The notes under the pieces were generated by a model, which had not been told where the DNA came from, ran no database searches, and saw nothing but the letters and a program-made list of their open reading frames with translations. The translations under genes were made by a program, and so were the position numbers. Shown here one piece after another: positions 3,828-52,635 of a stretch of 64,000 nucleotides of DNA. Numbering within the stretch: the first letter of the stretch is position 1; each line of letters begins with the position of its first letter. The DNA comes from Halorubrum sp. DM2 (lineage in GTDB: Archaea > Halobacteriota > Halobacteria > Halobacteriales > Haloferacaceae), in assembly GCF_901686465.1 (NCBI RefSeq), contig NZ_LR594487.1:2325020-2389019 (forward strand), given 5' to 3'.

Positions 3828-3858
3828 TATTAACACTCTTTATTATCACATCTAACAA

Positions 3859-4959: not shown

Positions 4960-5082
4960 AGTACATATGTAGTGCGGGGTGCTAATGAAAGATCCGTTGT
5001 AAAGAATTTAAGAATATCTTAGGGAACTACTTTGAAGTACTTAGTGGAAACGTGTGAATAAGGATACCTACTCTCTACGAAG

Positions 5083-6228: not shown

Positions 6229-6315
6229 TGTAGTGTTGTATTACGGATGTTTTGATAAATCTTTCTCCATCTATCCAACTGACGTATCCAAGATTAACGA
6301 AGCCAAATCACTTGG

Positions 6316-7266
6316 TCATAATTTCATGTATATATCCCTTATAAATGAAAATAGGCGCCCCTCTCTGTCAAGGCCAATTATATTGATCGTGAACAAGGCC
6401 CAAGGGAGTGGGTGAATAGGATATCTAAGTATAGCACGTAATAAGTGATTTAATGACTTCGTCCGATTACCTTTTAAACCATAATCTCGCCCAATCACAT
6501 AATGATGATGTGAAAGAATCCGATTACGGGTTAGAAAGCCCAGATTATTTGTCCGTTTCAAGACTTTCCTATATACACCCAAATCCCCTTTAATCCGACT
6601 TTCAAAGTTTTTAGATATGCTATCCTCTTGTTCTCTTTTTTCAACTAGAATTTCATCAACGTAGTCTACTTCAAATCTTTCTGTTATGCGGATCCAAAGG
6701 TCATAGTCCTGCCTACTCGGAAGGGACGAATCAAATCCACCAACCTGTTCTAAGCACTCCCGTTTCAGCATAACTGTTGAGGTAGGGTGGAGTTGATCCC
6801 GCTCTAATTGACTAATATAGATTTCACCAGAAGCTTCTGGAAGTACTCTCTTATTTGTTTCATCTATATTTTGTTGGACATAGCCCGTATAGACTAGTCC
6901 AAGTTTTTCACTCCCTCTCTGAAAAACCGAAAGTTGTTTTGCTAGCTTTGTTGGTCGCCATAGATCATCAGCATCTAGGAAAGCGAGGAAATCTGACTTT
7001 GCAGCGTCAATACCCGTATTTCGCGCTTCTGCTGCCCCCTTATTTTCATCATGTACAACCAGAGTTACCCGACTATCGTATGAGTCAATTATGGGTCCAT
7101 AATCTACATCCGAATTATCATCAATAACAATGACTTCATAATTGTCTATTGTCTGTCTGTATATACTATCTAACGCGTCAGCGAGTAAGTCTGGCTGATT
7201 GTACACTGGAATAATAATACTCACCTGTATGTTTTCTTGATTTCTGCTCTGATTTTCTTTTTCCAT
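6316..7266 (-). CDS. Glycosyltransferase family 2 (GT-A fold)
   Basis: A 316-residue GT2 enzyme. After a short polar leader it has VSIIIPVYNQPDLLADALDS, then VIVIDDNSDVD, the GAAEARNTGI loop, and the metal-binding DxD in FLAFLDADDLW, followed by the acceptor-side SRQDYDLWIRI. All are classical GT2 marks. It lacks C-terminal membrane helices, so it is probably a peripheral enzyme. It is the first gene of the A+T-rich minus-strand trio, and the 116 bases to the divergent GT4 gene at 7383 must hold both promoters. Composition suggests it arrived with the same cassette. Confidence 0.87.
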   Translation of the reverse strand: MEKENQSRNQENIQVSIIIPVYNQPDLLADALDSIYRQTIDNYEVIVIDDNSDVDYGPIIDSYDSRVTLVVHDENKGAAEARNTGIDAAKSDFLAFLDADDLWRPTKLAKQLSVFQRGSEKLGLVYTGYVQQNIDETNKRVLPEASGEIYISQLERDQLHPTSTVMLKRECLEQVGGFDSSLPSRQDYDLWIRITERFEVDYVDEILVEKREQEDSISKNFESRIKGDLGVYRKVLKRTNNLGFLTRNRILSHHHYVIGRDYGLKGNRTKSLNHLLRAILRYPIHPLPWALFTINIIGLDREGRLFSFIRDIYMKL

Positions 7267-7382
7267 ATTTATGATATTAGTGGTGGATCCTCTTTCTGAA
7301 GTACTCTAACAGACCCGGAATGTTGCCTTACTGGTCATATCATCCGAAACGGTATTATTCTTACCCGTTAAGTCATGAGCAA

Positions 7383-8522
7383 ATGCGCGTGGCCTTCGTG
7401 ACCAACGTTGTGTACCCGTTTATTACCGGCGGTGCCGAAAAGCGCATCCACGAGATCGGCACCCGCCTCGCCGAGCGCGGCCACGAGGTCACCGTGTACG
7501 GCCGGCATTTCTGGGACGGTCCTGAAGAGATCACCCACGAGGGAATCACCCTCCGCGCGGTCGCGCCCGAGGCGGACCTGTACGCAGACGACCGCCGCTC
7601 GATCACGGAGGCGCTCGACTTCGCGGCGCGCGCGCTGCCGCCCCTCCGTCGCCGCCTCAGCAACGACGAACACGACGTGGTCGTCGCGAGCGTCTTTCCC
7701 TATTTCCCTGTCCTCAGCACCAAACTCGCAAGCCTCGGCACGGACACGCCGCTCGTCACGACTTGGCACGAGGTGTGGGGCGACTACTGGGAGGAGTATC
7801 TCGGGCGGCTCGCCCCGTTCGGGAAAGTCACCGAACACGTCACCGCCCGGACGCCCCAGCATCCCACCGCGATCTCCGGGGTCACCGCGGACCGCCTCGC
7901 CGCCATCGGCCCCGATCGCGGTCGAATCGAGATCGTCCCGAACGGGATCGATGTCAAGCAGATCCATAACGCCCCACTCCCCGAACAGGGCTACGACGTA
8001 CTCTTCGCCGGCCGACTGATCGAACACAAGAACGTCGACCTCCTCTTAGAAGCATTTGACCGAGTGGCCGTCGACACCGACGCCACCCTCGGGATCGTCG
8101 GCGACGGGCCGGAACGCGACGCACTGGAAGCGCAAGCAAACGAGCTGATCCACGCCGACCGCGTCGAGTTCCTCGGCTTCCTCGACGACTACGAAGACGT
8201 CCTCGGCCACATGCGCGCCGCCGACATGTTCTGCTCGCCGAGCACCCGCGAGGGGTTCGGCCTCACCTTCGCGGAGGCGATGGCCGCCGACTGTACGGTG
8301 ATCGCCGCCGACCACCCGGATTCGGCCGCAGACGAAGTCATCGGCGACGCGGGCTTTCTCGTCGACCCGACTGTCGACGCCGTGACGGACACACTCCACG
8401 GCACACTCCGTGGCGACCGACCCGCCACGAATCCTGTCGAACGCGCCCAGCGATACGATTGGGACGCCGTCGCCGACCAAGCCGAACGGGCGTACCGGCG
8501 CGCCGTCAACGGCGAGTGGTGA
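7383..8522 (+). CDS. Glycosyltransferase family 4, high-G+C
   Basis: A 379-residue GT4 enzyme starting at ATG 7383 (MRVAFVTNVVYPFITGGAEK); the frame is open further upstream, but that leader (LPYWSYHPKRYYSYP) is unlike a GT4 N-terminus and covers the promoter. Donor-site motifs are VLFAGRLIEHKNVDLLLEA and STREGFGLTFAEAMAAD (E-x7-E). Unlike the genes to its left it is G+C-rich and acidic, so it belongs to the resident genome or was ameliorated long ago. A degraded copy of its last ~35 codons lies about 1 kb downstream (9398-9520), showing past duplication of this locus. The sugar specificity is unknown. Confidence 0.88.
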   Translation: MRVAFVTNVVYPFITGGAEKRIHEIGTRLAERGHEVTVYGRHFWDGPEEITHEGITLRAVAPEADLYADDRRSITEALDFAARALPPLRRRLSNDEHDVVVASVFPYFPVLSTKLASLGTDTPLVTTWHEVWGDYWEEYLGRLAPFGKVTEHVTARTPQHPTAISGVTADRLAAIGPDRGRIEIVPNGIDVKQIHNAPLPEQGYDVLFAGRLIEHKNVDLLLEAFDRVAVDTDATLGIVGDGPERDALEAQANELIHADRVEFLGFLDDYEDVLGHMRAADMFCSPSTREGFGLTFAEAMAADCTVIAADHPDSAADEVIGDAGFLVDPTVDAVTDTLHGTLRGDRPATNPVERAQRYDWDAVADQAERAYRRAVNGEW

Positions 8523-14972: not shown

Positions 14973-16187
14973 CTAGTTCACGGCGCTGAAGAAGAACGAC
15001 GAGAACACGAGCTGGACGCCGACCACGATCGCGGTGAACGCCACGAGCCCGCTCGTCGTGAACGGGACGGCGGCGAAGCCGTTCAGCGCCCAGTCGACGA
15101 TCAGCCAGGTCGCGTAGCTGCCCCCGGCGGCGAACACGATCAGGCCGGCCGTCGCGCCGCGTTCGAGCGTTCCGTACGTCGACACCCACGAGGTCACCGC
15201 GTCGCCGGGTTTCTGGATCGGGTCGCTGGCGACGGTCGCGAACACGCCGAGGGTCCCGACCTGAATCCCGAGGATCGTGAAGAGACTCCCGGCGATCATC
15301 GAGTTCACGCCGAGCGTCACCTCGCCGAGCGCGACGCCCGTGTGCGCGACCGCCATCACGGCCGCGCCGAACAGCGCCAGCAACACCCCGGGCACGGAGA
15401 ACAGGTAGCCGGGCGCGTTCACGAGCATGAACCGGACGTGTCGCCAGCCGTCACGGAAGCTGTCGAGCGTCTCCTCGCCCTCCCGCTCGTGATACACGAT
15501 CGGTACCTCGGCGATCCGGAGGTCCTTCGCGCCGGCGTCCATGATCATCTCCGAGGCGAACTCCATGCCGTCGGTCTCTAACTCCATCCGCTCGTACGCC
15601 TCGCGGGTGAAGATCCGGAAGCCGCTGTGGGCGTCGCTCACGCCGGCCTCGTAGAACGCGTTCAGGAACTGGGTCAGGAGTGGGTTTCCGACGTACTGGT
15701 GGAGCGTAGGCATCGACCCGTCTTTGATCTCTCCGTCGAGACGGCTCCCCATCACCATGTCAGCGCCCGTCTTCTCGAGATGGTCGAGCAGCCGCGGGAT
15801 CTGCGTGAAGTCGTACGTGGTGTCGGCGTCGCCCATGACGATGTACTGGCCACGCGTCCGCTCGAAGGCGTACCGATAGGCGTAGCCGTACCCTTTCCCG
15901 TCGGGTTCGACGACGATCGCGCCCATCTCTCGGGCGATCTCCGGCGTGCGGTCCGTCGAGCTGTCACTGATGATGATCTCCGTCGGGAGCTGGAGCTCCT
16001 CGACGGCACTCTTGATCCAGTTGAGACACGTCTCGATTCCTTCTTCCTCGTTCAGCGTCGGCATGACGACCGACAGCTCCGGTGTCGTCGCCGACTCTCG
16101 GTCGACGAGGAGTTCGTCGGCGCTAAGCGGGTCGTCACGGGCAAGTTCTGACTCCGACTCCGATGGAGCGGTAGTAGTGGACGCCAT
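14973..16187 (-). CDS. GT2 dolichyl-phosphate-type glycosyltransferase, membrane-anchored
   Basis: A 404-residue protein. After a ~35-residue acidic leader comes a DPM1-like GT2 domain: ELSVVMPTLNEEEGIETCLN, IIISDSSTDRTPEIA, GKGYGYAYRYAF, and the catalytic DxD in VMGDADTTYDF, then MVMGSRLDGEI. The last ~140 residues contain four membrane helices. This layout fits polyprenol/dolichol-phosphate hexose synthases such as those that load sugar on dolichol phosphate in Haloferax N-glycosylation (AglJ/AglD type). The exact orthologue cannot be fixed from sequence alone. It lies 118 bases downstream of the epimerase, same strand, suggesting joint work in glycan precursor supply. Confidence 0.85.
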   Translation of the reverse strand: MASTTTAPSESESELARDDPLSADELLVDRESATTPELSVVMPTLNEEEGIETCLNWIKSAVEELQLPTEIIISDSSTDRTPEIAREMGAIVVEPDGKGYGYAYRYAFERTRGQYIVMGDADTTYDFTQIPRLLDHLEKTGADMVMGSRLDGEIKDGSMPTLHQYVGNPLLTQFLNAFYEAGVSDAHSGFRIFTREAYERMELETDGMEFASEMIMDAGAKDLRIAEVPIVYHEREGEETLDSFRDGWRHVRFMLVNAPGYLFSVPGVLLALFGAAVMAVAHTGVALGEVTLGVNSMIAGSLFTILGIQVGTLGVFATVASDPIQKPGDAVTSWVSTYGTLERGATAGLIVFAAGGSYATWLIVDWALNGFAAVPFTTSGLVAFTAIVVGVQLVFSSFFFSAVN

Positions 16188-23027: not shown

Positions 23028-24110
23028 TCAGTCCGTCTCGGATTCCGCTTCGTCCGTTTCCACTTCCGCACCGTCGGTCAACGGCTTCGGGTCCTGTTTC
23101 CCCTCGTCGCTCTCCTTGATCGGTTCCGTTCCGTCGTTCGCTGTCTCCGTCTCGGCGAACGACGCGTCAGCGCCCGGCGGCGCGACGCTTTCGACGACCT
23201 CCTCGACGATCGCGGCCACCGAGCGCTCGGCCAGTTCCGCGTCGGTCGTCCGGATCACGCGGTGGACGAGCACCGGCGGCGCGAGCGCCTTGACGTCGTC
23301 GGGGATGACGTACGACCGGCCGCGGATCGCCGCCCGCGCCTTCGCGCCGGCGAGGAACGCGAGCGTCGCGCGCGGCGAGCCGCCGTACCGCAGCGCGGGC
23401 GACTCGCGGGTCGCGGCGACGATGTCGAGGATGTACTCCTTGACGGGATCCGCGACGAACACGTCGGTGACGGCCTCGCTTGCGGTCCGCACGTCCTCCG
23501 GCTCGATCACCTGCGGGACCGCGTCGGCGTCGAGGCCCGGCGCGTCGTCGAACCGATCCAGCACCTCCCGCTCGTCGGCGCGACCGGGCACCTCGACGGT
23601 GTACTTGAGCTGGAAGCGGTCCCGCTGGGCCTCGGGTAGCTCGAAGACCCCCTCCATCTCGATCGGGTTCTGCGTGGCGACGACCATGAACGGCTGCGGC
23701 AGCCGGAGCGTCTCCCCCTCGATGGTGACCGTCGACTCCTCCATCGCCTCCAAGAGCGCGCTCTGGGTCTTCGGCGTGGCGCGGTTGATCTCGTCGGCGA
23801 CCACCACGTTCGAGAACACCGGCCCCTTGCGGAGCTGGAACTCCCCCGTCGCCTGCTGGTAGACGTTTGTCCCCGAGACGTCGGCGGGGACCATGTCCGG
23901 GGTCATCTGGATCCGACCGTACGAGAGGCCGAGCGCCCGGGCGAACGCGTTCGCGATCGTCGTCTTCGCGACGCCGGGGACCCCTTCCAAGAGCACGTGG
24001 CCGTCCGTGAGCAGCGCGATCGTGAGTCCCTCGAGTACGTCGTCGTTGCCGACGACGACGTCGCTCGTCGCCTCCCGGATCGCGTCGTACACCGCCTCGG
24101 GGCTACTCAT
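23028..24110 (-). CDS. MoxR-family AAA+ ATPase
   Basis: A 360-residue AAA+ ATPase. Walker A GVPGVAKTT is at residues ~38-46, Walker B VVVADEINRA at ~105-114 with the sensor-type segment KTQSALLEAMEE after it, and VVATQNPIEMEGVFELPEAQ is the diagnostic MoxR stretch. A lid domain with ALRYGGSPRATLAFL follows, then an acidic C-terminal tail of ~60 residues. MoxR proteins act as chaperone-like motors with DUF58/VWA partners. Here the start overlaps the DUF4350 gene by 8 bases, while the DUF58 gene is on the opposite strand and converges on it, so expression of the two halves is separate. Confidence 0.92.
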   Translation of the reverse strand: MSSPEAVYDAIREATSDVVVGNDDVLEGLTIALLTDGHVLLEGVPGVAKTTIANAFARALGLSYGRIQMTPDMVPADVSGTNVYQQATGEFQLRKGPVFSNVVVADEINRATPKTQSALLEAMEESTVTIEGETLRLPQPFMVVATQNPIEMEGVFELPEAQRDRFQLKYTVEVPGRADEREVLDRFDDAPGLDADAVPQVIEPEDVRTASEAVTDVFVADPVKEYILDIVAATRESPALRYGGSPRATLAFLAGAKARAAIRGRSYVIPDDVKALAPPVLVHRVIRTTDAELAERSVAAIVEEVVESVAPPGADASFAETETANDGTEPIKESDEGKQDPKPLTDGAEVETDEAESETD

Positions 24111-25317
24111 CTTCTCTCCCTGCGTCCCGCTCGGACAAAACGTCTGTCATCGCGTTGCGAAGTCGCGTCTCGTCCCACTCTGGGTAGCGATTCCGGAGCG
24201 CGTCGAGGACGGCCGCCTCGTCGACCGCGGGCCCTCCCCGCTCTCCCGAGCCGAGGAGCCACGGCGGAAGCCGTGCCTGAAAGCGTCGCGACAGCAGGGC
24301 GTCGAGCCGCTGGCCGACCGCGCGGCCGAGGCCGCCGCCACGGTGTCCGTATCCCCACACGACGCCGACGCCGAGCAGACCGACCAGCACCTGGAGGAGC
24401 GACGACGACCGGAACGCCAAGAGGGCGACGGCCACCGGCGGCTGGTCGCCCGCGTGCGAGTAGTCGAGCAGGACGCGGTCGCCGGCGGTCACGAGCCCGC
24501 TCGCGAACGCCTCGTTGTCCGGCTGGTCGAGCATGGCGTTGATGAAGAGGCTCGGGTCGCCGGCGGCGATCACCCGCCCGTCGCCGACCGACTCGACGGT
24601 GACGACCGGGTACGCCCCCAGTTCGTCGTCGGCCGACAGGTTCCCGGTCGCGTTGCGGTCGAGGTAGCCGAACGGCGACGTGGTGACGATCGCTGTCGCG
24701 TTCGCGGGTCCGGTCGCGTTTCCGGTTCTCGTCGCGTTCGCGGGTCCGGTCGCGTTCCTCGTCGTTCCGTTCGCGGGCCCGGTCCCGTTTCCGGTCGTCG
24801 CGGTCCCGATCGCCACCGCGGTCGCCCCGTTTAGCGTCAACTGGTCGACGCCCGCGGTGTACCGCGTCTCGGTGACGTTCGTCGCGATCGGCAGCGACGG
24901 CGCTCGGTAGTAGCTGCGCTCGTCGCGCAGCTGCGCCCCGTCGAACCGCGCGGTCGCGCCGACGTCGCCGAGGAGCCGGTTGCCGTGCGGGCCGACGTCG
25001 TCCGCGACGACCAGCGTGCCGCCGGCCGCGACGAACTCGCGGACGCGCCGCGAGTCGTTTTCGCCGTACTCCCTCGCGGGTGCGAGCGCGACCGCGACGG
25101 TTCCGTTCGGGTCGGCCGTCTCGTACGCACCCGTCCCGAGCGCGACACGGCTCTCTGACTCCTGATCGGCGAGTTCGCGGAAGTCGCTCGTCCCGTCCCA
25201 CTCGACGTTGTACGCGCCGAAGGCGGCCGTGGTCGTGCTCGCGGCGACGACCAGCGCGACGGCGAGGACGAGCGCCAGCGCGTACAGGACCAGCCGCGGG
25301 ATCGGTGGTGTGTCCAT
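24103..25317 (-). CDS. DUF4350 domain membrane protein
   Basis: A 404-residue protein with an N-terminal membrane helix (LVLYALALVLAVALVVAAS), an extracytoplasmic domain of the DUF4350 type (GTSDFRELADQ..., FVAAGGTLVVADDVGPHGNR, DGRVIAAGDPSLFINAMLD), a second helix (LAFRSSSLLQVLVGLLGVGVVW region), and a basic then acidic tail with a small helical domain near the end (DEAAVLDALRNRYPEW). A Asn-Gly-Thr/Asn-Ala-Thr-rich stretch around residues 175-215 is full of N-glycosylation sequons. It lies directly after the 91-residue gene with no spacing and overlaps MoxR by 8 bases, indicating a translationally coupled operon. DUF4350 proteins often accompany MoxR/DUF58 and are thought to be membrane partners. 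Confidence 0.85.
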   Translation of the reverse strand: MDTPPIPRLVLYALALVLAVALVVAASTTTAAFGAYNVEWDGTSDFRELADQESESRVALGTGAYETADPNGTVAVALAPAREYGENDSRRVREFVAAGGTLVVADDVGPHGNRLLGDVGATARFDGAQLRDERSYYRAPSLPIATNVTETRYTAGVDQLTLNGATAVAIGTATTGNGTGPANGTTRNATGPANATRTGNATGPANATAIVTTSPFGYLDRNATGNLSADDELGAYPVVTVESVGDGRVIAAGDPSLFINAMLDQPDNEAFASGLVTAGDRVLLDYSHAGDQPPVAVALLAFRSSSLLQVLVGLLGVGVVWGYGHRGGGLGRAVGQRLDALLSRRFQARLPPWLLGSGERGGPAVDEAAVLDALRNRYPEWDETRLRNAMTDVLSERDAGREDE

Positions 25318-25721: not shown

Positions 25722-26888
25722 ATGGTCGACCGACGCGACGCGTGGCTGCTGCTCCCCGGGCCGGTCCGCCGGCTCCCGGCCGACCTCGCCGCGACGGTCG
25801 TGTTCACGCTGGCAACGCTCGCGACGGTGTTCGTCCCCGTCGTCAACGAGACCCCGCTCCGCGCGGCCTTCGGGCTCGCGTTCGTGTTGTTCCTCCCCGG
25901 CTACGCCTTCATCGCCGCGCTCTTCCCCGAGGCCGGGACGGGGGCGTCCGACGGGGAGTCGTCGACTTCCGAGAACGCGTTGGACGCGGAGGCGTCGACC
26001 GCGGACGCGTCTGACGCGGCGGGATCGACCGTGGAGGCCGGTGACGAGCCCAGTCCCGTACCCGGCACCGCGGCGGCCGAACGCGCGTCGGAGGCCGACT
26101 CGACGAGTGCGACGGCCGGCCTCAGGTCGTCCGACCGGTCGGGGATCGACGGGATCGAACGCGTTGCGCTGTCGTTCGGGCTCTCAATCGCGGTCGTCCC
26201 GCTGATCGGGCTCGTGTTGAACTTCACCCCGTGGGGAATTCGGCTCGTTCCCGTCGCGACCGCGGTCGCCGGCTTCACGCTCGGCTGCGTCGCCGTCGCC
26301 GCGCGGCGTCGGTGGGACCTCCCCGAGGCCGAGCGGTTCGCGGTCCCGTACCGCGAGTGGCTCGCCGCCGGCCGGCGGGAGCTGTTCGAGCCCGACGACC
26401 GGACGGACGCGGCGCTCAACGCCCTCCTCGCCGTCTCCGTGCTCCTCGCGGTCGGTAGCGTCGGCTACGCGGTCGCGGTCCCGCCGCAGGGCGAGCAGTT
26501 TACGGAGTTTTATCTCCTCACCGAGAACTCGGACGGCGAGCTCGTCGCAGACGGCTATCCGGAGACGATGGAGCGGGGGGAGGCCGCCGAACTGACCGTC
26601 GGCATCGGGAACAACGAGTACGAGGCAACGAGCTACACCGTCGTCGTCCAGCTTCAGGACGCCGAGACGGCGAACAACTCGACGACGGTGCTCGACCGGA
26701 CCGAACTCGACCGGTTCTCGGCGACCGTCGCGCACAACGAGACCCACCACGAGCGGCACGCGCTCCGCCCGACGCGGACCGGCGAGGACCTCCGCGTCCA
26801 GTACCTCCTCTATCGGGGGGAGCCACCGGCCGAGCCGACCGGCGACAACGCGTACCGCGAGCTTCACCTCTGGGTCGACGTCGAGTGA
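25722..26888 (+). CDS. DUF1616 family membrane protein
   Basis: A 388-residue protein. Two helices at residues ~22-70 (including AAFGLAFVLFLPGYAFIAAL) are separated by a Ser/Ala/Asp-rich linker from two more (GLSIAVVPLIGLVLNFT, LVPVATAVAGFTLGCVAVAA), then a fifth (LLAVSVLLAVGSVGYAVAV) leads to an extracytoplasmic beta-sandwich-like domain (FTEFYLLTENSDGELVADGY...). The FLPGYAF motif and overall order define DUF1616. Members are often near glycan or surface-protein loci in archaea, with no known activity. It precedes the ABC transporter by 82 bases but has a separate promoter between. Confidence 0.82.
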   Translation: MVDRRDAWLLLPGPVRRLPADLAATVVFTLATLATVFVPVVNETPLRAAFGLAFVLFLPGYAFIAALFPEAGTGASDGESSTSENALDAEASTADASDAAGSTVEAGDEPSPVPGTAAAERASEADSTSATAGLRSSDRSGIDGIERVALSFGLSIAVVPLIGLVLNFTPWGIRLVPVATAVAGFTLGCVAVAARRRWDLPEAERFAVPYREWLAAGRRELFEPDDRTDAALNALLAVSVLLAVGSVGYAVAVPPQGEQFTEFYLLTENSDGELVADGYPETMERGEAAELTVGIGNNEYEATSYTVVVQLQDAETANNSTTVLDRTELDRFSATVAHNETHHERHALRPTRTGEDLRVQYLLYRGEPPAEPTGDNAYRELHLWVDVE

Positions 26889-26970: not shown

Positions 26971-27699
26971 ATGAGCGAGCCTTCCACGCCGACGTCGTCG
27001 GATTCCGCGGCCTCCCGGGCGATCGTCTGTACCGACGTCACCCAGCGATACGACGGCGACAGTGGGCTTTTCGCGTCCGGCGGCCGGACGGTCACGGCCC
27101 TCGACGGCGTCTCGCTCGCCGTCGACGACGGCGAGGTGGTGGGGATCGCGGGCCCGAGCGGGAGCGGCAAGTCGACGCTGTTGCACGTGCTGGCGGGGCT
27201 CGCGACGCCGACGGAGGGATCCGTCGAGATACGCGGGACGGATCTGGCGACGCTGTCGCGACGCCGACGGACCGCGTTCCGGAGCGCGAACCTCGGCATG
27301 GTGTTCCAGCGGTTCCACCTCCTCCCGGCGCTGACGGCGCGCGAGAACGTCGCCCTGCCGCTCGTCCAGCGGGGCGTTCCACGCGGTCGCCGCCGGGATC
27401 GAGCAAGCGAGCTGCTCGACGCGGTCGGACTCGCCGACAGGGAAGCCCATCGACCGGGGACGCTCAGCGGCGGCGAACAGCAGCGCGTCGCCATCGCCCG
27501 CGCGCTGGCGGCGGACCCGGCGGTCGTGATCGCCGACGAGCCGACGGGCGAACTCGATCACGACACCGGCGAACGGGTGCTCGACCTGCTCACGGAGATC
27601 AGCGACGACCGTGCGGTCGTGATCGCCTCTCACGACGCGCACGCGCTCGACCGCACGGACCGCGTCGTCCGACTACTGGACGGGAGCCGGGAGTCATGA
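26971..27699 (+). CDS. ABC transporter ATP-binding protein, MacB/LolD type
   Basis: A 242-residue ATPase. Walker A GPSGSGKST (~residue 57), Q-loop VFQRFHLLPALTARENV, signature LSGGEQQRVAIARAL, Walker B VVIADEPTGELD and H-loop IASHD are all present. Short loops and the FQRFHLLP Q-loop place it in the MacB/LolD/FtsE class that powers mechanotransmission rather than transmembrane transport. It overlaps the first permease by ATGA, so it is coupled to the two following FtsX-type proteins. The complex probably extrudes or releases lipoproteins or other envelope substrates; the substrate is unknown. Confidence 0.92.
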   Translation: MSEPSTPTSSDSAASRAIVCTDVTQRYDGDSGLFASGGRTVTALDGVSLAVDDGEVVGIAGPSGSGKSTLLHVLAGLATPTEGSVEIRGTDLATLSRRRRTAFRSANLGMVFQRFHLLPALTARENVALPLVQRGVPRGRRRDRASELLDAVGLADREAHRPGTLSGGEQQRVAIARALAADPAVVIADEPTGELDHDTGERVLDLLTEISDDRAVVIASHDAHALDRTDRVVRLLDGSRES

Positions 27700-28928
27700 C
27701 CGCGAGACTCCGTCGCCTCCTCGCGGCCTGCGGGCTCGGCGTCCGCCGCGTGATCGGGCGACTGCGCGGGGCGGCTCCCGGCCGCACGGCCGTGTGTATC
27801 GCCGGCGTCGCCGTCGCGGTCGGCCTGCTGTTCGTCGTCACGGGGATCTCGCTCGGGCTCGCCGCGGGCGCGACCGTCGAGAGCGAGGACATCGACTACT
27901 GGATCGTCCCGGACGAGAGCGGGTCCGGGAGCGTCCCGCTCGAAGCGGAGGGCGCTCGGCTGAGCGAAGTCCACACCGTCACCGAGCGCCTCCGTAACGA
28001 CGACCGGATCGACTACGCCTCGCCGGTGGCGCTACGTCCCCTGCGGCTGGAGAACCCCGAGACGGGGAACCGGACCTACGTGATCGCGGTCGGGGTGATC
28101 CCGCCCGACCGTCCCCGTCGCGTCGCCGACCTGAACGTGAGCGCGCTCGACGCCGCGTACGCTCACTACGCCAACGGGACGTACGGCGGCGAGCGGTCGG
28201 ACGAGTTCGTGGTCTCGCCGGGCGTCGCCGCGGATCTGGGGCTCGAACGCGGCGACACCGCTCGCGTCGCTCGCTCGGACCGGTCGCTCACGGTCGCGGC
28301 GGTCAACGACCGCGAGATGGCGGCCGGATTCGGCGAGGTCCCCGCTATCGCCGTACCGCTGGCCGAGCTTCAGTCGATGACGGGCCTCGCCGAGAGCGAC
28401 GAGGCGGACCAGATCCTCGTCGGCACGACCAATCCGTCGGTGGAGTCCGACCTCGCGGACATCTACCCGGGCACCGAAGTCGTCTCGCGGACCGGTATCG
28501 CCGGTGCCGAGGCGACGCCGACGAATCTCCCGCTGGCGATGGCGCTGGCCGCGGCGCTGGTCGCCGGCGGGATCGGGGTCGCGTTCGTCGCGACGATGAT
28601 GGGGCTCGAACTGACAGCCGGTCGCCGCGAACTCGCTGTCCTCGACGCGGTCGGGTTCTCCGGTCGCATGCGCGCCGCGGTCGTCGTCTCCGAGACGATC
28701 ACCGTCGCCGTCCTCGGCGGGATCGCGGGCGTCGCGCTCGGACTGGTCGCGACCGCCGGCGTGAACGCGGGCGTCGCCTCCGCGATCGGCGTCGGATCGC
28801 TCGCCGAGAGACCGCCGTGGTTGGCCGCGTACACCCTCGCCGCGGCGGTCGTCGTCGGTCTCTGTGCGGCCCCGTACCCGCTGTATCTGGCCGCGAGCAC
28901 CGACACGCTGGAGGAGTTGACGGGATGA
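27696..28928 (+). CDS. FtsX-like ABC permease 1
   Basis: A 410-residue permease with the MacB/FtsX layout: one N-terminal helix (GRTAVCIAGVAVAVGLLFVVTG region), a large extracytoplasmic domain (~60-260), and three C-terminal helices with the FtsX pattern (LAAALVAGGIGVAFVATMMG, RELAVLDAVGFSGRMRAAVV, then two more). The RELAVLDAVG coupling-helix segment is typical. ATGA overlaps link it to the ATPase before and the second permease after. It probably forms a heterodimer with permease 2. Confidence 0.88.
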   Translation: MTARLRRLLAACGLGVRRVIGRLRGAAPGRTAVCIAGVAVAVGLLFVVTGISLGLAAGATVESEDIDYWIVPDESGSGSVPLEAEGARLSEVHTVTERLRNDDRIDYASPVALRPLRLENPETGNRTYVIAVGVIPPDRPRRVADLNVSALDAAYAHYANGTYGGERSDEFVVSPGVAADLGLERGDTARVARSDRSLTVAAVNDREMAAGFGEVPAIAVPLAELQSMTGLAESDEADQILVGTTNPSVESDLADIYPGTEVVSRTGIAGAEATPTNLPLAMALAAALVAGGIGVAFVATMMGLELTAGRRELAVLDAVGFSGRMRAAVVVSETITVAVLGGIAGVALGLVATAGVNAGVASAIGVGSLAERPPWLAAYTLAAAVVVGLCAAPYPLYLAASTDTLEELTG

Positions 28929-30157
28929 AACGGCTCCGTCGCCTCTGGGGGACCGGCTGGATCGCGCTCCGCCAACTCCGCTCGGATCGAGCCCGCACGC
29001 TGCTGGCCGTCCTCGGCGTGACCCTCGCCGTGCTTTCGGTCACGCTGCTCGTCGGCGTCGGTGCCGGCGTCGTCGAGACGGGCAGCGAGACCTTCGACCA
29101 GTCCGGCCGCGACCTGTGGGTCTCCGGCGGGCCGATCGATATCGCGCCGGGAACGGTCGGCGGCTTCCAGAACCCGATCCCGAACGCCCACCCGCTCGCC
29201 GACGAGATCGCCGCCCACGAGGACGTTCGCACGGCCACCCCGCTGGCGTTTCAGGTCGTGTACGTCAGCCCCGACGGCGAGGCGTTCGACACCACGATGG
29301 GCAGCGGCACCCCCGGGGCGGGCGGCTCCGTGTCGATCGCCGAGGGGGAGGGGTTCACCGGACCGGACACCCACTACGCCGGCGGGAACTACACCGGCAA
29401 GATGACGTATCAGGCGCTCATCTCGCCCGCGTTAGCGGAGAAGTACAACCTCAGCGTCGGCGACACGATCCACGTCGGCGGGACGGTCCAGACCGCGCGC
29501 GAAAACGAGTTCGAGGTCGTCGGGATCTCGCCCACGTTCGCGAACTTCCTCGGCACCGGCACCGTCACGCTCCGCCTGAGCGAGCTCCAGACGCTCACCG
29601 GCAACGCCTACGACGACCGGGCCACGATCGTCACCATCGAGACGGTCGACGGCGCGGACCCGGCGGCCGTCCGCGAGGAGCTCGCGGCGCAACATCCTGC
29701 GTACACGTTCCGGACGAATCAGGAACAGCTCGTTGAGGTCCTCGAACGGCAGGCGGTGGTGTTGGCGGCCGGCGCGAGCCTCGCGGTACTCGGCGTTGTC
29801 GCCGGCGGAGCGCTCGCGTTGAACCTCCTCCTGTCCATCGTCTACGTCCAACGCGAGACGCTGTCGGTGTTGCGCGCGGTCGGCGCGACGCGGCTCGGCG
29901 TCGTCGGCGTGGCCGTCGCACAGGCGCTCGCGATCGCGATCGTCGGGTTCCTCCTCGGTGCCGTCACGACGCCCCCGCTCGCCGCGGGGCTCAACCGCGT
30001 CGCATTCGAAGTCACCGGGTTCGAGGGTCTCGTTCGCGTCCCCGCGTACGCCTACGGCACCGGTGCGGCCGTCGCCGTCGGGTTCGCGCTCGTCGGCGGC
30101 GTCGTCGGTGCGGTGCGCGTCACGCGGCTGGCCTCCGCGAACGAGCTGCTTCAGTGA
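28925..30157 (+). CDS. FtsX-like ABC permease 2
   Basis: A 410-residue permease starting at ATG 28925 (MKRLRRLWGTGWIALRQL), which overlaps the previous stop (ATGA); the upstream extension of the frame is only a shadow of permease 1. It has an N-terminal helix (RTLLAVLGVTLAVLSVTLLV), a MacB_PCD-like extracytoplasmic domain (~50-270), and FtsX helices with ETLSVLRAVGATRLGVVGVA. It pairs with permease 1 and the ATPase to form a MacB-like complex. No accessory membrane-fusion protein or lipoprotein is linked. Confidence 0.88.
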   Translation: MKRLRRLWGTGWIALRQLRSDRARTLLAVLGVTLAVLSVTLLVGVGAGVVETGSETFDQSGRDLWVSGGPIDIAPGTVGGFQNPIPNAHPLADEIAAHEDVRTATPLAFQVVYVSPDGEAFDTTMGSGTPGAGGSVSIAEGEGFTGPDTHYAGGNYTGKMTYQALISPALAEKYNLSVGDTIHVGGTVQTARENEFEVVGISPTFANFLGTGTVTLRLSELQTLTGNAYDDRATIVTIETVDGADPAAVREELAAQHPAYTFRTNQEQLVEVLERQAVVLAAGASLAVLGVVAGGALALNLLLSIVYVQRETLSVLRAVGATRLGVVGVAVAQALAIAIVGFLLGAVTTPPLAAGLNRVAFEVTGFEGLVRVPAYAYGTGAAVAVGFALVGGVVGAVRVTRLASANELLQ

Positions 30158-30268: not shown

Positions 30269-31465
30269 TCACCGGCCCCGGCGCAGTCGTCGCAGTGTTC
30301 CCCCGGCTATCAGTGCCAGAAGGACGCCCTGAATCGCGTACAGCGGCGTACTGTCTGCCGTTTCGTCCGACGAATCGGTCTCATTGTTCGGTTCGATCGG
30401 TCCGTCGTCGTCGTTCGTCGAGTCGGTGGAGTCGCTGGTATCTGTCGTCGACCCGTCGGAATCCGTACCACCACCGGACGAGTCGTCCGCTGAATCATCG
30501 GTCGCCCCCGACGCCGTGTCCGTGCCGTTCGTGGTATCGGTCCCGTTTGCGGAGTCAGTGCCGTTCATGGTATCGGTCCCGTTCGCGGAGTCAGTGCCGT
30601 TCGTGGTATCGGTCCCGTTCGCGGAATCCGTAGTGTCTGTCCCCGTGTCAGGCGCTGAACCACCGTCGGTTCCGTCTTCTCCCCCTGTCGATCCACCGGT
30701 GTTTCCGGTTCCCCCGGTCCCGCCGTCCGACGCGGACACAGTGACATCCCGATTCTCACTTAGCCCGATCAGTTCCTTCTCCCCTTCGGCGGACTCCTCA
30801 CCGCGGACCCTGACGTGTGCTCGGTACTCTCCTTCCTCTGGGGGGTCTATCGAAGTCTCGTAGGTGTGATCGTCGACCCGTTCAAGCTCGTGTACCTCGT
30901 CTGAGTCGTCGGTCCACAGAACTAGCTCGACACCGCTGATCGAGGTGTCAGAAAGCTCCGTGAGTTCGACGCGTACGTCGACCTCCTCGTCAGCAGCAAT
31001 ATCGCTGCCGTCGGCGGGGTCTCCATTGAGAGTGAAACTGTCAACTTGATGAGCTTCGATAACTACAGGGAGGAATGCGTCAACGATCGACTGGTCGTTG
31101 ATGATGACGGCGTAACTCCCCGGCGGTTCACTCGCCGCCGAGAACTCCACCTCGGCGTCTCCCTGTACGGAGTCATTATTACCGATCTCGTCCTGTTGCG
31201 CGTTGAGAAATATCACGTTGTACGAGTTCTCTCGCGGACTGGTGGTCTCGACGACGAGATCCTCGTCAGGTCCGATAACAGCGATTTTGGCGCTCTCGAC
31301 GGTTACGCTGAATCCTCCCTGACTGATCGTTTCACTCTCTTCAGGAACGGCGATGGTTGACTCGGTCTCGATATCATACCCCGAATCGGCGGCTGTTACC
31401 AGTCCCACCGTCGTGACTATCCCTAACAGCAGTAAAAAAATGAACAGCACTGATCGTGTTCTCAT
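30269..31465 (-). CDS. Secreted surface protein with tandem N-glycosylation sequons
   Basis: A 398-residue protein with an N-terminal signal/membrane helix (SVLFIFLLLLGIVTTVGLV), an all-beta ectodomain of ~240 residues with repeated EVDVRVELTELSD-type strands, a Gly/Thr/Asp/Ser-rich stalk, and a C-terminal helix (LYAIQGVLLALIAGGTL) with an RRLRRGR stop. The stalk contains six NGT sequons spaced every six residues (DNA repeats at 30522-30629). It is probably held at the surface by the C-terminal helix and heavily glycosylated. It diverges from a second surface protein at 31644. The ectodomain family is not recognised. Confidence 0.8.
   Translation of the reverse strand: MRTRSVLFIFLLLLGIVTTVGLVTAADSGYDIETESTIAVPEESETISQGGFSVTVESAKIAVIGPDEDLVVETTSPRENSYNVIFLNAQQDEIGNNDSVQGDAEVEFSAASEPPGSYAVIINDQSIVDAFLPVVIEAHQVDSFTLNGDPADGSDIAADEEVDVRVELTELSDTSISGVELVLWTDDSDEVHELERVDDHTYETSIDPPEEGEYRAHVRVRGEESAEGEKELIGLSENRDVTVSASDGGTGGTGNTGGSTGGEDGTDGGSAPDTGTDTTDSANGTDTTNGTDSANGTDTMNGTDSANGTDTTNGTDTASGATDDSADDSSGGGTDSDGSTTDTSDSTDSTNDDDGPIEPNNETDSSDETADSTPLYAIQGVLLALIAGGTLRRLRRGR
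30522..30629. repeat. Three 36-bp tandem repeats encoding NGT sequons
   Basis: Units 30522-30557, 30558-30593 and 30594-30629 differ at a few bases and keep frame. Each encodes twelve residues with two Asn-Gly-Thr sequons (SANGTD and TT/TMNGTD). The repeat lies in the stalk of the secreted protein on the minus strand. Confidence 0.9.
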
Positions 31466-31643: not shown

Positions 31644-34130
31644 ATGACACGTCGGGCCCCACAGCGGACTTTAGCAGTAATTCTCAGCGTCTTGATGGTG
31701 ATCTCGATGATCGGGCCGGCCGCGGGAGCGGCTCTCGCGAGTGGGAGCCAGCACCATGACGCGTTGTCCGACGCTTCCGTCTCAAACGGACACTCAAACA
31801 CCGACGCCGTGATCAACATCACGGATAACTTGGAAATTTGGGAGGGTGTAGCACTGCGTCCCGCCGTGATCGATCGGTCCGCCGCGAGTACAACCGTGGG
31901 GAGTCCGACTGTGAGGGTGCGTTCGGAAGTAGCTCCCTTTGAGCCTTCAATAAACACGGAACAGGAGGGAGTGTTTACTGTGGATGATTCAGAGACTGTT
32001 GAGTTCTCTTTCAGCGGTCGCAACGGCGCAGCGACCTCTGACTTTGATGGCGATAATCTCCGGGTTCTCGTCGCACACATCGACCCGGATGCTGACGAAA
32101 CGAGAGCGTTCTTAGACGCGGAAAACGTCACCGTCGACGAGGTTCGAGAGACGTTCAGCGAGGTCGACGGATTTGAAGCCTTCGAGGATGAGGTCAACAA
32201 CCGCGAGGAGGTGAGCTTCGGGCTGGTACGCGAGTACTTCGAAGGAACCGACCAGTTCGAGCAGTTCGGCGAAAAAGTAGCCGAGGACCGAGAGATCAGC
32301 GTCGACAATACGATCGAGACGTTGACCTCCGATGAGGTCAAGGAGTTCGTGACGTTCGAGACGGTGTCTCCTACTTCCATTGAAGGCGGCAGTGCCACGG
32401 CCGATGTCACGTTCGACGAACCGGGCTCGTACGTGGTCATCGGACACGTCGGCGGAGCAGTCCTCGACGACGGTGCGGACCAACCGGACTTCAACGACAC
32501 GACGGTCGTCGGGGTCGACACCGCCGTGGCACAGGCGGCCGAATCGGAGATCTTCGTCGACGACGAGGTCGTCCGCGGTGAGAACGTGACGGTCGACGCG
32601 ACGGCGAATCTCGACGCGGAACAGGTCTCTCACGCCGCTTTCGTGTTCGACGAGGGCGCGGTGAACGCCACGACGCACACCATTTCCGTTTCGGGCGATC
32701 TCTCGACGGATCTCCGTACCGAAGACGTGACGCTCGAAACAGACGTTGAATCGGTTCAGGGCGTCGCAAACGTTCAGCCCAACGCCGAGATCAGAGGGAA
32801 CACACTCAGTGACGAACGCTTCAACGGAACGGTCGACATCCAGTCTGGCGCGGACACGTTCTTCAGCTTCCGTAACGCGTTCGTCAGTGGTCTCGACTTC
32901 CGTGAGCAGGCTGGCGACGCAGCCAGTCTTGATGTTACCGGTAACACGGTTATCCAGTCATCGATGACTGCGGTCGGAGACCAGTCGGATCAGGCAGTAT
33001 TTGATGTCGAGACGCTCGAAGAGTGGGACACCGGCAACTACACCGTCGTCCACGTAGCCACTGATCAGGAGACGGGCGAGATCAGCACGACCCGCGAGGA
33101 CATCACACTCGTTGATTCGGACGGCGGTGGCGGTGACGGAGATGGTGATGGTGACGGAGATGGTGATGGTGACGGAGATGGTGATGGTGACGGAGACGGT
33201 GACGGCGATGACGGTGGCGATGGCGGCGGTGGTGTCGGTGGCGACGGTGGCGGCGGTGCGACGCCGCCGGACGATGTCCAACCGCCGGAGCCACCGGCCG
33301 ATGTCGACGTCGAGTTCGAGGAGACGGCGTCGCTCCAGTTCGATGAGGAGACTGGACAGACGACGGCTACGTTCGGCGAGCAAAGCAATATCGAGTCGAT
33401 CCGGTTCAACTTCCAGACCTCCGGCTCGGTCAATGTCCGGTCGCTGAGCGGGACGTCCGACGAGACCGGTCCCACGCCCGGCGCGTCCGTGACCGTCTCG
33501 CAGATTACCGTCGACGAGGCGCTCGAAGACAGTTCCGCGACGATTCGCAAGCGGGTCTCACAGAGCCGACTCGACCAGACCAGTGCCGACGCCGAGGACC
33601 TCAGCGTCTTCCGGTTCTCGGACAGCGAGTGGCAGCCCCTCGACACCGAAATCGTGTCGGAGACGGGCTCCGGCGTCGTCATCGAGACGGAGACGCCCGG
33701 ATTCTCGTACTTCGCCGTGAGCGCCACGAGCGCGCCTGAGGCAAGTGCCACGGTCACGCCGGACACCCTGGCCGCGGGCGACGAGATCGAACTCGACGGC
33801 AGTGAGTCGATGACCGAGTACGGCGAGATCACCGCGTACGACTGGACGCTGAACGGCGGGTCGCTCTCCGGCGAGACCGTCAGTGCGACGCTCGACGAGC
33901 CGGGCGAGTACACGGCGGAGCTGACCGTCACGAACGACGCCGGCGAGACCGACACCGCGACCGCGACCGTCACCGTCGAGGAGGCGGGTGATGGCACCGA
34001 CGGAACGGGCGACGGCACCGACGGGCCCGCGGAGGAGCCCGCCGGACTCAACCCCGGCGTGATCGCGCTCCTTCTGGTGTTGGCGCTGCTCGCGGCCGCG
34101 GCCGTCGTCTGGATCCGCAGAGAGAACTAG
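31644..34130 (+). CDS. Large surface protein with PGF-pre-PGF and PKD domains
   Basis: An 828-residue secreted protein. ATG 31644 (MTRRAPQRTLAVILSVLMVI) is the start: AGGA lies six bases upstream and a typical signal peptide follows, ending near AAGAALA. The long N-terminal ectodomain is acidic, with two internal similar helical motifs (VDEVRETFSEVDGFEAFEDE and GLVREYFEGTDQFEQFGEKV). A Gly-Asp linker (~residues 492-535) is followed by a PGF-pre-PGF domain (~540-695: SIRFNFQTSGSVNVRSL, SQSRLDQTSADAEDLSVFRF), one PKD domain (~697-790: YDWTLNGGSLSG) and a C-terminal helix (GVIALLLVLALLAAAAVVW) with a short RREN tail. No PGF tripeptide precedes the helix, so an ordinary membrane anchor is more likely than archaeosortase processing. 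Confidence 0.85.
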   Translation: MTRRAPQRTLAVILSVLMVISMIGPAAGAALASGSQHHDALSDASVSNGHSNTDAVINITDNLEIWEGVALRPAVIDRSAASTTVGSPTVRVRSEVAPFEPSINTEQEGVFTVDDSETVEFSFSGRNGAATSDFDGDNLRVLVAHIDPDADETRAFLDAENVTVDEVRETFSEVDGFEAFEDEVNNREEVSFGLVREYFEGTDQFEQFGEKVAEDREISVDNTIETLTSDEVKEFVTFETVSPTSIEGGSATADVTFDEPGSYVVIGHVGGAVLDDGADQPDFNDTTVVGVDTAVAQAAESEIFVDDEVVRGENVTVDATANLDAEQVSHAAFVFDEGAVNATTHTISVSGDLSTDLRTEDVTLETDVESVQGVANVQPNAEIRGNTLSDERFNGTVDIQSGADTFFSFRNAFVSGLDFREQAGDAASLDVTGNTVIQSSMTAVGDQSDQAVFDVETLEEWDTGNYTVVHVATDQETGEISTTREDITLVDSDGGGGDGDGDGDGDGDGDGDGDGDGDGDGDDGGDGGGGVGGDGGGGATPPDDVQPPEPPADVDVEFEETASLQFDEETGQTTATFGEQSNIESIRFNFQTSGSVNVRSLSGTSDETGPTPGASVTVSQITVDEALEDSSATIRKRVSQSRLDQTSADAEDLSVFRFSDSEWQPLDTEIVSETGSGVVIETETPGFSYFAVSATSAPEASATVTPDTLAAGDEIELDGSESMTEYGEITAYDWTLNGGSLSGETVSATLDEPGEYTAELTVTNDAGETDTATATVTVEEAGDGTDGTGDGTDGPAEEPAGLNPGVIALLLVLALLAAAAVVWIRREN
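33132..33203. repeat. Four 18-bp tandem repeats encoding (DG)n linker
   Basis: GGTGACGGAGATGGTGAT is repeated three times exactly (33132-33149, 33150-33167, 33168-33185) and once with two changes (33186-33203). It encodes alternating Gly and Asp in the hinge between the N-terminal ectodomain and the PGF-pre-PGF domain. The near identity suggests recent slippage expansion. Confidence 0.9.
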
Positions 34131-34516: not shown

Positions 34517-35401
34517 GTGACCGTTCCGAACAGCGAAGTCGAGGCTCGCGAACTGCCCGCCAGCGGCCGGGCCCAATCTCGCTCTCGATTCGGTGGGATC
34601 GACGGATCACGGGTCGCTACCGATGCGCTCGCCTTGCTCGTCGTGCCGCTCGTCATGGTCGGGGTGTTCTCGCTGCCGACCGAGATAAAGCGGGCGTACG
34701 CCTTCTCGTACACGGAGCCGACGGTGCTGACGGCGTTTACCGCTCACTACGTCCACCTCACGTTGGACCACCTCGTGGGGAATCTCACCGGATTCTTCCT
34801 TTTGGCATCGCTGGCCTACGGACTCAGCCTCGTCGGCGGGCGTCGCCGCCTCTTTTTCGCCTCGATGGCGACGTTCCTGATCGCCTTCCCGTTCGTCTTG
34901 TCCGGTCTGAACCTCGCAATCCCACGGAACGCGATCGGCTTCGGATTCTCCGGAATCAACATGGCGCTGTTCGGGTACGTCGCCGTCGCCCTCGTGACGG
35001 TCGTCGGCGACCGGTTCGAGGCCGATACGTGTCGATACCTGCCGGCGCTGTTTCTCGCTTCCGCGGGGTACGTCGCAGTACACGCGCTCCCCGTGTCTGC
35101 CGCCTCGGTCGGGCTCGCCTCGGTCGCTCTGGCCGTTGCAATCCCCTACGGACGCTTCGCGGAGCGCCACTCGACGCAATCGCTTCGACGGACGGTCGCG
35201 CAAGCCCTCGACACCCCCGTGTACGGGGAACTCTTCGCCGTCTCCGTCGTCGTACTGCTGGGATACCCCTTCGTGGGCTTCCCGACGCCGACGCCCGGGG
35301 GCCCACGAGTCAACATCTACATCCACTTTCTGGGCTACGCGCTGGCATACACCGTCGTCTACGTCTCGCTGCTCGCGGACCGATCTGACCGCCTCCTGTA
35401 A
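34517..35401 (+). CDS. Divergent rhomboid-family intramembrane serine protease
   Basis: A 294-residue membrane protein with about seven helices. Rhomboid marks are the His/Asn-bearing loop HYVHLTLDHLVGN, the catalytic serine in GFGFSGIN (Ser145), and the catalytic histidine in a late helix IHFLGYALAY (His270). The early ~35-residue polar leader has no signal peptide character. GTG 34517 is used because the TATA-like GATATACC at 34488-34495 is ~25 bases upstream and no ATG is suitably placed. Rhomboids cut single-pass membrane proteins; the two anchored surface proteins just upstream are possible substrates, which is inference. The GxSx motif is GFSG rather than the common GASG. Confidence 0.78.
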   Translation: MTVPNSEVEARELPASGRAQSRSRFGGIDGSRVATDALALLVVPLVMVGVFSLPTEIKRAYAFSYTEPTVLTAFTAHYVHLTLDHLVGNLTGFFLLASLAYGLSLVGGRRRLFFASMATFLIAFPFVLSGLNLAIPRNAIGFGFSGINMALFGYVAVALVTVVGDRFEADTCRYLPALFLASAGYVAVHALPVSAASVGLASVALAVAIPYGRFAERHSTQSLRRTVAQALDTPVYGELFAVSVVVLLGYPFVGFPTPTPGGPRVNIYIHFLGYALAYTVVYVSLLADRSDRLL

Positions 35402-50778: not shown

Positions 50779-52635
50779 ATGAGCCGGAACGACGAGGTCG
50801 CGACCCGGTTGGAGGAGTTCGCCGACCTCCTGGAGGCGACGGGCGTCGAGTACAAGCCGACCGCCTACCGACGGGCGGCCGAGAACGTCCGCGACCACCC
50901 CGCGCCGATCGAGGGGCTCGCGGCCGAGGGCGAGGACGCGGTCGCGGAGATAGACCGCGTTGGCGACGCCATCGCCGCGAAGATCGTCGAGTACGTCGAG
51001 ACCGGCGCGATCGAGGAGCTGACCGACCTCCGCGAGGAGCTCCCCGTCGACATGGCGGGTCTGACCGCGGTCGAGGGCGTCGGGCCGAAGACGGTCGGAA
51101 CGCTGTACGACGCGCTCGGAATCTCCGATCTCGACGAGTTGGAGGCCGCCGCGGAGGCGGGCGAGATCCGGGAGGTCTCCGGGTTCGGCGCGAAGACGGA
51201 ACAGAACATCCTCGACAACGTCCCGTTCGCCCGGGAGTCCCGCGAGCGCACCCGCCTCGGCGACGCGCGCCCCCTCGCGGACGACGCGCTCGCGCACCTC
51301 GCCCACCGCGACGACGTCGCCGCCGCCGAGGTGTGCGGCTCGATCCGTCGCTGGAAGCCGACCATCGGCGACGTCGACCTGCTCGTCGCGAGCGACGAGC
51401 GCGACCCGATCGTCGAGGCGTTCACCGACTGGCCGGCCGCGGACGCGACGATAGAGGCGGGCACCGGGAAGGCGAGCGTCCGCGCGGACGGCACCCGCGT
51501 CGACCTCCGGATCGTCGATCCCGACGAGTTCGGCGCGGCGCTCCAGTACTTCACCGGCTCGCGGGCGCACAACGTCGCCGTCCGCAACCGCGCGATCGAC
51601 CGCGACCTGAAGCTGAACGAGTACGGCCTGTTCGACGTGAGCGACGTCGACGGCGAGGGGACCGATGTTGACGCCGATGCCGACACGGACGACGCCGATG
51701 CCGACACGGACGACGCCGACGCCGACACGCACGACGCCGACGCCGACGACGGAGCCGCCGAGGAGGCGGACGCGACGCGCGTCGGAGACCGCGTCGCGGG
51801 CGAGACGGAGGAGGGGGTCTACCGCGCGCTCGACATGGACCCGGTGCCGCCCGAACTTCGCGAGGACCGCGGAGAGGTCGCCGCCGCCGCCGAGGGGCGG
51901 CTCCCCCTCCTCGTCGACGAGGGCGACCTCCGCGGCGACCTCCACACCCACACCGACTGGTCCGACGGCGGCTTCTCGATCGTCGAGATGGCCGCGGCCG
52001 CCGCGGAGCGCGGCTACGACTACCACGTCGTCACCGACCACGCGACGGGTCCGGGGATGGTCGGCGGCGTCGGCCTCGACGAGTCCGACATCGAGGAGCA
52101 GGCGGCGGCGATCGAGGCGGCCCGCGAGGAGGTCGACATCCCGATCTTCCACGGGATCGAGGCGAATATCGACGATGAGGGCGGTCTCTCGACCGACGAC
52201 GAGGTCCTCGACGCCCTCGATCTGGTCGTCGCGTCGCCCCACGCCGCGCTCGGACAGGACGCGGACGCGGCCACCGAGCGGCTAGTGACGGCCGTCGAAC
52301 ACCCGCACGTCGACGTTCTCGGTCACCCGACCGGCCGCCTCATCAACGAGCGTCCCGGCCTCGACCCCGACATCGAGGCGGTCGCCGAGGCGGCCGCGGC
52401 CAACGGCACCGCGATCGAGGTGAACGCGAACCCCGCCCGGCTCGACGCCGACGGCGAGTTCGTCCGGGCCGCGATCGAGGCGGGCGCGGCGATCGCCGTC
52501 GACACCGACGCGCACGCCCCCCGCGAACTCGACAACGCGCGGTACGGTGTCCACACCGCGCGGCGGGGGTGGGCCGAGACCTCGCAGGTACTCAACGCCC
52601 GGTCGCTCAACGGGCTTCGGACGTTCCTGCTGTAG
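50779..52635 (+). CDS. polX: DNA polymerase X family protein with PHP domain
   Basis: A 618-residue PolX from ATG 50779 (MSRNDEVATRLEEFADLLEA). Residues 1-80 are the helical 8-kDa-like domain; helix-hairpin-helix motifs follow (LTAVEGVGPKTVGTLYDALG, VSGFGAKTEQNIL). The nucleotidyltransferase site is CGSIRRWKPTIGDVDLLVAS with the Asp pair, plus VDLRIVD as third Asp. An acidic insert (~residues 296-325, tandem repeats) is followed by a PHP phosphoesterase domain with DLHTHTDWSDG, VTDHATG, FHGIEANI, DVLGHPTG and DTDAHAP, all metal-ligand motifs. Such enzymes fill short gaps in base-excision repair, and the PHP part can act as 3' exonuclease. It is followed without spacing by the Mut7-C gene. Confidence 0.92.
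   Translation: MSRNDEVATRLEEFADLLEATGVEYKPTAYRRAAENVRDHPAPIEGLAAEGEDAVAEIDRVGDAIAAKIVEYVETGAIEELTDLREELPVDMAGLTAVEGVGPKTVGTLYDALGISDLDELEAAAEAGEIREVSGFGAKTEQNILDNVPFARESRERTRLGDARPLADDALAHLAHRDDVAAAEVCGSIRRWKPTIGDVDLLVASDERDPIVEAFTDWPAADATIEAGTGKASVRADGTRVDLRIVDPDEFGAALQYFTGSRAHNVAVRNRAIDRDLKLNEYGLFDVSDVDGEGTDVDADADTDDADADTDDADADTHDADADDGAAEEADATRVGDRVAGETEEGVYRALDMDPVPPELREDRGEVAAAAEGRLPLLVDEGDLRGDLHTHTDWSDGGFSIVEMAAAAAERGYDYHVVTDHATGPGMVGGVGLDESDIEEQAAAIEAAREEVDIPIFHGIEANIDDEGGLSTDDEVLDALDLVVASPHAALGQDADAATERLVTAVEHPHVDVLGHPTGRLINERPGLDPDIEAVAEAAAANGTAIEVNANPARLDADGEFVRAAIEAGAAIAVDTDAHAPRELDNARYGVHTARRGWAETSQVLNARSLNGLRTFLL
51670..51750. repeat. 21-bp tandem repeats inside polX
   Basis: Three full units (51670-51690, 51691-51711, 51712-51732) of GACGCCGATGCCGACACGGAC type and a partial fourth encode repeats of the form DADADTD. 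They form an acidic linker between the polymerase and PHP domains. The first two units are identical and the third differs by two bases, so expansion is recent. Confidence 0.88.

Follow-up and report, generated by a model that had tools for sequence, protein, structure and literature searches.

We read the product of one gene in the window, the 64,000-nt stretch of the Halorubrum sp. DM2 genome analyzed here, as a membrane-anchored Ig-like protein whose stalk carries N-glycosylation sequons amplified by a DNA repeat and would, once glycosylated by AglB, act as a spacer; we put the probability of this reading as a whole at about 60%. Two Ig-like domains would be held off the membrane by a flexible, disordered and acidic stalk, and most of its sequons would have arisen by tandem duplication of a 36-bp unit with two NGT. 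AglB probably attaches glycans to at least some of the six NGT sites and perhaps to all, and the glycans would make the stalk stiffer, longer and more protease-resistant; in other genera, stalks rich in Thr would play this part, carrying either O-glycans or none. Among members of this protein family in the window's genus, N-glycosylation sequons are favored in the stalk. Coordinates are collected in Table 1.

Table 1. Features of the window around the stalk gene, with the basis for each assignment.
Feature	Position	Strand	Basis
Gene for predicted surface protein with sequon stalk, 398 aa	30269..31465	-	ORF, family profile, structure model
Hydrophobic N-terminus, candidate signal peptide, residues 1-25	31391..31465	-	Read by eye from sequence; model helix 5-17
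Two predicted Ig-like domains, residues 27-244	30734..31387	-	Model beta strands, Foldseek
Low-complexity stalk, residues 245-372, predicted disordered	30350..30733	-	pLDDT, composition
Six NGT sequons, residues 283-315, six-residue period	30521..30619	-	Sequence
36-bp tandem repeat, 3.0 copies, 94% match	30518..30625	-	Tandem Repeats Finder
Further stalk sequon NET 361, in conserved IEPN-type motif	30377..30385	-	Sequence, alignment
Predicted C-terminal membrane helix, residues 380-396, then Arg-rich tail	30278..30328	-	Model; sub-threshold GPS-CTERM
Divergent conserved neighbor, PGF-pre-PGF and PKD domains	31644..34130	+	Pfam/NCBIfam matches
LolCDE/MacB-like ABC transporter	26971..30157	+	ATPase 26971-27699; FtsX-type permeases 27696-28928, 28925-30157
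DUF1616 protein	25722..26888	+	Domain match
DUF4350 protein with 11 sequons	24103..25317	-	Domain match, sequence
Second sequon array, NGT/NAT, residues 177-208	24694..24789	-	Tandem Repeats Finder, alignment
GT2 glycosyltransferase, AglJ / dolichyl-phosphate hexose transferase-like	14973..16187	-	Below both curated cut-offs

The preliminary description of this DNA spoke of a secreted protein with a stalk, and structure prediction bears it out as a membrane-anchored, exported architecture with a disordered stalk. The model, computed from the window protein together with four homologues from Haloferax, has a mean pLDDT of 55.7; beta-sandwich domains extend as far as residue ~244, with pLDDT mostly 60–93 from residue 61, and pLDDT falls below 50 across residues 248–398, residue 322 excepted. 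Foldseek matched pairs of Ig/FN3/filamin domains with a best E of 8.5e-06 and low TM-scores, the Pfam Filamin match stayed below its cut-off, and a sequence search of the PDB gave no significant match. The modeled beta domains, the disordered stalk, the C-terminal helix and the Ig-type Foldseek matches point together to a surface protein, most likely one whose two Ig-like domains sit on a flexible stalk anchored in the membrane. Such a protein would be exported, and the predicted topology would put the sequons outside the membrane.

The array itself is as first described: six NGT in a row at residues 283, 289, 295, 301, 307 and 313, exactly six apart, made by three near-identical copies of a 36-bp unit (NGTDTTNGTDSA / NGTDTMNGTDSA / NGTDTTNGTDTA) with two NGT per unit. 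Elsewhere in the protein, sequons occur at NDS 97 and NET 361. The stalk thus holds seven sequons against 3.6 in shuffles of its residues (p ~0.02–0.03), a modest excess for a single protein.

We followed the family through a comparison set of one genome per species. Of 170 genomes from the taxonomic family, 70 had a match to a profile HMM of eight ectodomains, spread over 18 of 28 genera, a count that takes in weak matches up to E 8e-4; Haloferax is among these genera, with four records found by using a homologue as the query, while the window protein as query gave no named relative. The closest homologues of the window protein are ~41% identical to it. Across 61 members, the ectodomain hardly varies in length (CV 0.03) compared with the stalk (CV 0.40); the members in L109 and L110 (3 ORFs), which lack a normal stalk, were left out of the stalk statistics. 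Within the window's genus, seven of nine analyzable stalks exceed their own shuffled versions in sequon number (p <0.03), the two others being those of L054 (the same locus as L004, in genome G008; 4 sequons vs 2.8 shuffled, p 0.3) and L057 (the same locus as L007; 2 vs 1.96, p 0.6).

Enrichment is not family-wide: outside the genus, only 4 of 52 stalks reached p <0.05, and Asn in these 52 members was not biased over Asp toward sequon context (OR 1.32, p 0.15). The median Thr content of the stalk is 28% in the other genera vs 15% in the window's genus, and sequon density per 100 aa is 0.9 vs 5.5. In the stalk Asn/Asp statistics, L060 was placed with the other genera and L061 was excluded as too short. 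The unenriched stalks of L054 and L057 and the Thr-rich, sequon-poor stalks beyond the genus count against the reading as a glycosylated stalk.

These figures bear on an alternative that we consider possible but doubtful, namely that the stalk is mainly an O-glycosylated, Ser/Thr-rich spacer in which the sequons are secondary. Haloarchaeal S-layer glycoproteins have a Thr-rich, O-glycosylated, membrane-proximal stalk that is a proposed spacer. The window protein resembles them in placing a stalk, with a proposed spacer role, between its ectodomain and its membrane helix, but it is small and two-domain, its stalk is sequon-rich, and Pfam and NCBIfam searches gave no match to an S-layer family. 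An O-glycan spacer would be consistent with the Thr content of the window stalk (23%, 30 of 128 residues), with the high Thr and few sequons of the other genera, and with the likely O-glycoproteins, some of them N-glycosylated too, reported for Haloferax volcanii in the accessible text of PMC8241124. Against it stands the genus of the window, with less Thr and yet denser sequons.

A further alternative, which we regard as rather unlikely, is that the array reflects neutral slippage in low-complexity sequence: acidic linkers of Gly/Thr/Ser/Asp lengthen through it, Asp and Asn codons are exchanged by a single transition, and sequons arise by chance. Hexad arrays are widespread in the genus. Of its 52 genomes, 30 had three NxT at six-residue spacing (109 matches, vs 4 for the reversed pattern), and 46 had hexad DxT arrays, which favor slippage. 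One homologue (L003, 41% identical) keeps the hexad array as NST/NGT, while the second-closest one (L004, in G008, 41% identical) shows DGS/DGT in its version of the hexad repeat, with no sequons inside. At L009, a run of NGTDEA hexads lies in an ORF without a hydrophobic segment, which we take, from its sequence type, to be a probably cytosolic YqeC-like protein; it cautions that a sequon array is not in itself a sign of glycosylation. Both the DGT/DGS homologue and the NGT array of the probably cytosolic L009 fit neutral slippage and count against a strict glycan brush, and the presence of a single sequon in the window stalk outside the array is likewise in favor of slippage.

What argues against neutral slippage is the identity of the residue that precedes x-S/T. 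In the stalks of the window's genus, 70 of 99 Asn stand in sequon context vs 100 of 272 Asp (OR 4.15, p 9e-9), and the bias persists when repeats are collapsed (58/88 vs 89/252, p 8e-7) and when the hexad-repeat members, i.e., the window protein, L053 and L054, are removed (48/66 vs 52/184). Individual stalks without hexad arrays show it as well, with Asn in sequon context at 8/8 in L055, 12/15 in L058, 8/10 in L059 and 8/9 in L090. The stalks of the genus also contain 55 NxT vs 15 NxS, despite similar numbers of Thr (208) and Ser (229), which agrees with the established preference of oligosaccharyltransferases for NxT over NxS.

Control ORFs, picked by composition from the same loci and assigned to classes by a crude hydrophobicity rule, point the same way. 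Cytosolic-type ORFs, those without a hydrophobic segment, had no Asn bias (OR 0.88 in 39 ORFs of the genus, 1.03 in 164 ORFs of the others), whereas exported-type ORFs from outside the family had one (OR 3.31 in 18 and 2.08 in 80 ORFs, respectively). These values depend on a filter set after the cytosolic-type class had given an OR of 2.0–2.7, mostly owing to cut-off proteins with dozens of sequons at the edges of the fetched stretches; it removed 45 ORFs at region edges and kept 404, and masked ORFs with runs of X were taken out too. The filtered own-genus set takes in L061, and also L060, which belongs to another genus. As a separate observation on 77 non-redundant exported-type ORFs from loci L053–L112 and the window, successive N-sequons lie at even spacings (4, 6, 8, 10) in 104 cases vs 61 at odd ones (3, 5, 7, 9), and Asp in sequon-like context has no even preference (89 vs 103); even spacing may place the sequons on the same face of beta strands.

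The location of hexad arrays was dropped as evidence for sequon selection: 30 of 35 N arrays vs 10 of 14 D arrays lay in ORFs with a hydrophobic segment, a difference that was not significant (p 0.25). The N set came from 57 loci, of which 35 were in-frame, 20 lay outside any plausible coding frame and 2 could not be assigned; the D set came from the first 30 loci among the matches listed, with one array each and 16 not in frame. In our reading, slippage makes the hexad arrays, and selection, if any, acts on the residues retained.

A glycosylated, AglB-modified stalk requires an oligosaccharyltransferase, and the genome encodes an AglB-type enzyme (TIGR04154, 915.9 bits vs a cut-off of 450) ~0.8 Mb from the window. 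The preliminary description had also placed a dolichyl-phosphate glycosyltransferase and a glycan locus within the window itself. For the former, a GT2 protein of this or the AglJ type is present, but its scores fall below the curated cut-offs (AglJ, 167 bits vs 325; dolichyl-phosphate hexose transferase, 122 vs 375); a gene for a sugar epimerase/dehydratase-type protein adjoins it. For the latter, glycosyltransferase-like ORFs lie at 555–8522, and of two that were searched, 555–1775 has glycosyltransferase matches and 2007–3827 has none. On the sequence evidence, a glycosylated stalk is likely.

Mucin-type glycodomains multiply their glycan sites by tandem repeats in an extended stalk. The candidate glycan sites of the stalk protein are multiplied in the same manner, but they would be N-linked sequons, not O-sites, and the analogy implies no homology. 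Should glycans indeed be attached there, expansion of a repeat could be a way for archaeal surface proteins to evolve in their number of N-glycans, comparable in a prokaryote to mucin repeats except for the N-linkage. The genomic sign, an excess of N but not of D ahead of x-S/T that is confined to exported ORFs, could offer a simple way to look for selection on N-glycosylation in archaea that lack glycoproteomics.

Published work on haloarchaea speaks for glycosylation of the stalk. Deletion of aglB in Halorubrum lacusprofundi strongly lowered glycosylation of the S-layer glycoprotein, according to the accessible text of PMC10384203. In Haloferax volcanii, 39 N-glycoproteins are reported, five of them from the cluster hvo_2160–hvo_2173, and they include the DUF1616 protein HVO_2173 and the macrolide-type permease HVO_2084 (PMC8241124, in the parts accessible). 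The window likewise has a DUF1616 protein and a permease beside the stalk gene, which we liken to HVO_2173 and HVO_2084 by protein kind alone. Both regions thus encode haloarchaeal secreted or membrane proteins with sequons, with a DUF1616 protein in each; the difference is that glycosites there were identified by mass spectrometry, whereas those of the stalk here are predicted from sequence, and that the accessible text of PMC8241124 describes no periodic array. In the archaeal literature as covered by titles and the openings of abstracts, with few subscription papers, no periodic sequon arrays made by DNA repeats were found.

The stalk gene and its neighbors form a conserved surface module. 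Among 60 family loci of at most 19 kb each, some of them incomplete, homologues of the divergent PGF-pre-PGF/PKD gene occur in 34, of the ABC ATPase in 33 (matches that need not be orthologues), of the FtsX permease and the MacB-like permease in 21 each, of the DUF4350 protein in 24, of MoxR in 23 and of the DUF1616 protein in 15. The ABC transporter module recurs in several family loci, and in genomes G025 and G008 one side of the stalk gene is taken up by the divergent PGF gene, the ATPase and two permeases, in this order, and the other side by DUF4350 and MoxR. The PGF-pre-PGF protein itself contains a long (DG)n tract encoded by an 18-bp repeat at 33132–33202 (3.9 copies, 98%), the third repeat-made linker in the cluster.

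The DUF4350 protein of this module carries an array of its own, in which six sequons, spaced by 5 or 6, coincide with a 36-bp repeat (24695–24800). The 12 aligned homologues either lack the inserted segment or have a much reduced one, and six of them have a single GNAT there, so that the most plausible origin of the array is amplification, within this lineage, of one ancestral GNAT sequon. Two independent 36-bp sequon arrays in neighboring exported-type proteins are notable. They would fit a wider proposal, tentative and in our estimate unlikely, that the genus uses tandem repeats as dials of glycan number: arrays, often hexad-spaced, would expand in the disordered parts of many exported proteins, two of them in the window, and, in this family, replace the Thr-rich stalk of other haloarchaea, so that changes in repeat number would drive the evolution of surface glycan density and perhaps its variation. 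As for a contingency locus, in which 36-bp slippage alters glycan number between cells and varies the surface against viruses or mating partners, the near-identical copies, the between-species variation of the stalk but not the ectodomain in length and the lineage-specific expansion of the second array would agree with it, but the three copies carry substitutions with no direct sign of fast slippage and between-species differences do not show switching, which makes it very improbable. A phase-variable brush is unproven, and variation between cells, put forward in the preliminary description, is unsupported.

The C-terminus of the stalk protein is similar to the GPS-CTERM sorting signal (NF040681) at 17.6 bits, or 21.7 in the genome search, yet under the 28-bit cut-off; one of eight family members matches this model, and PGF-CTERM is absent among the NCBIfam matches of the protein up to E 0.1. 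A rhombosortase-like membrane protein is encoded at 34517–35401, 3 kb from the stalk gene (TIGR03902, 24.1 bits vs a cut-off of 84); only 2 of 60 loci have a counterpart of it close to their stalk gene. We rejected rhombosortase/GPS-CTERM sorting because both matches are sub-threshold and the linkage is seen in so few loci; a literature search on GPS-CTERM found no paper.

Repeat-encoded linkers also occur farther along the window, where a 21-bp tandem repeat at 51670–51761 gives rise to a linker rich in D/A/T. The long ORF that contains it, judged by its sequence, looks like a DNA polymerase X type protein.
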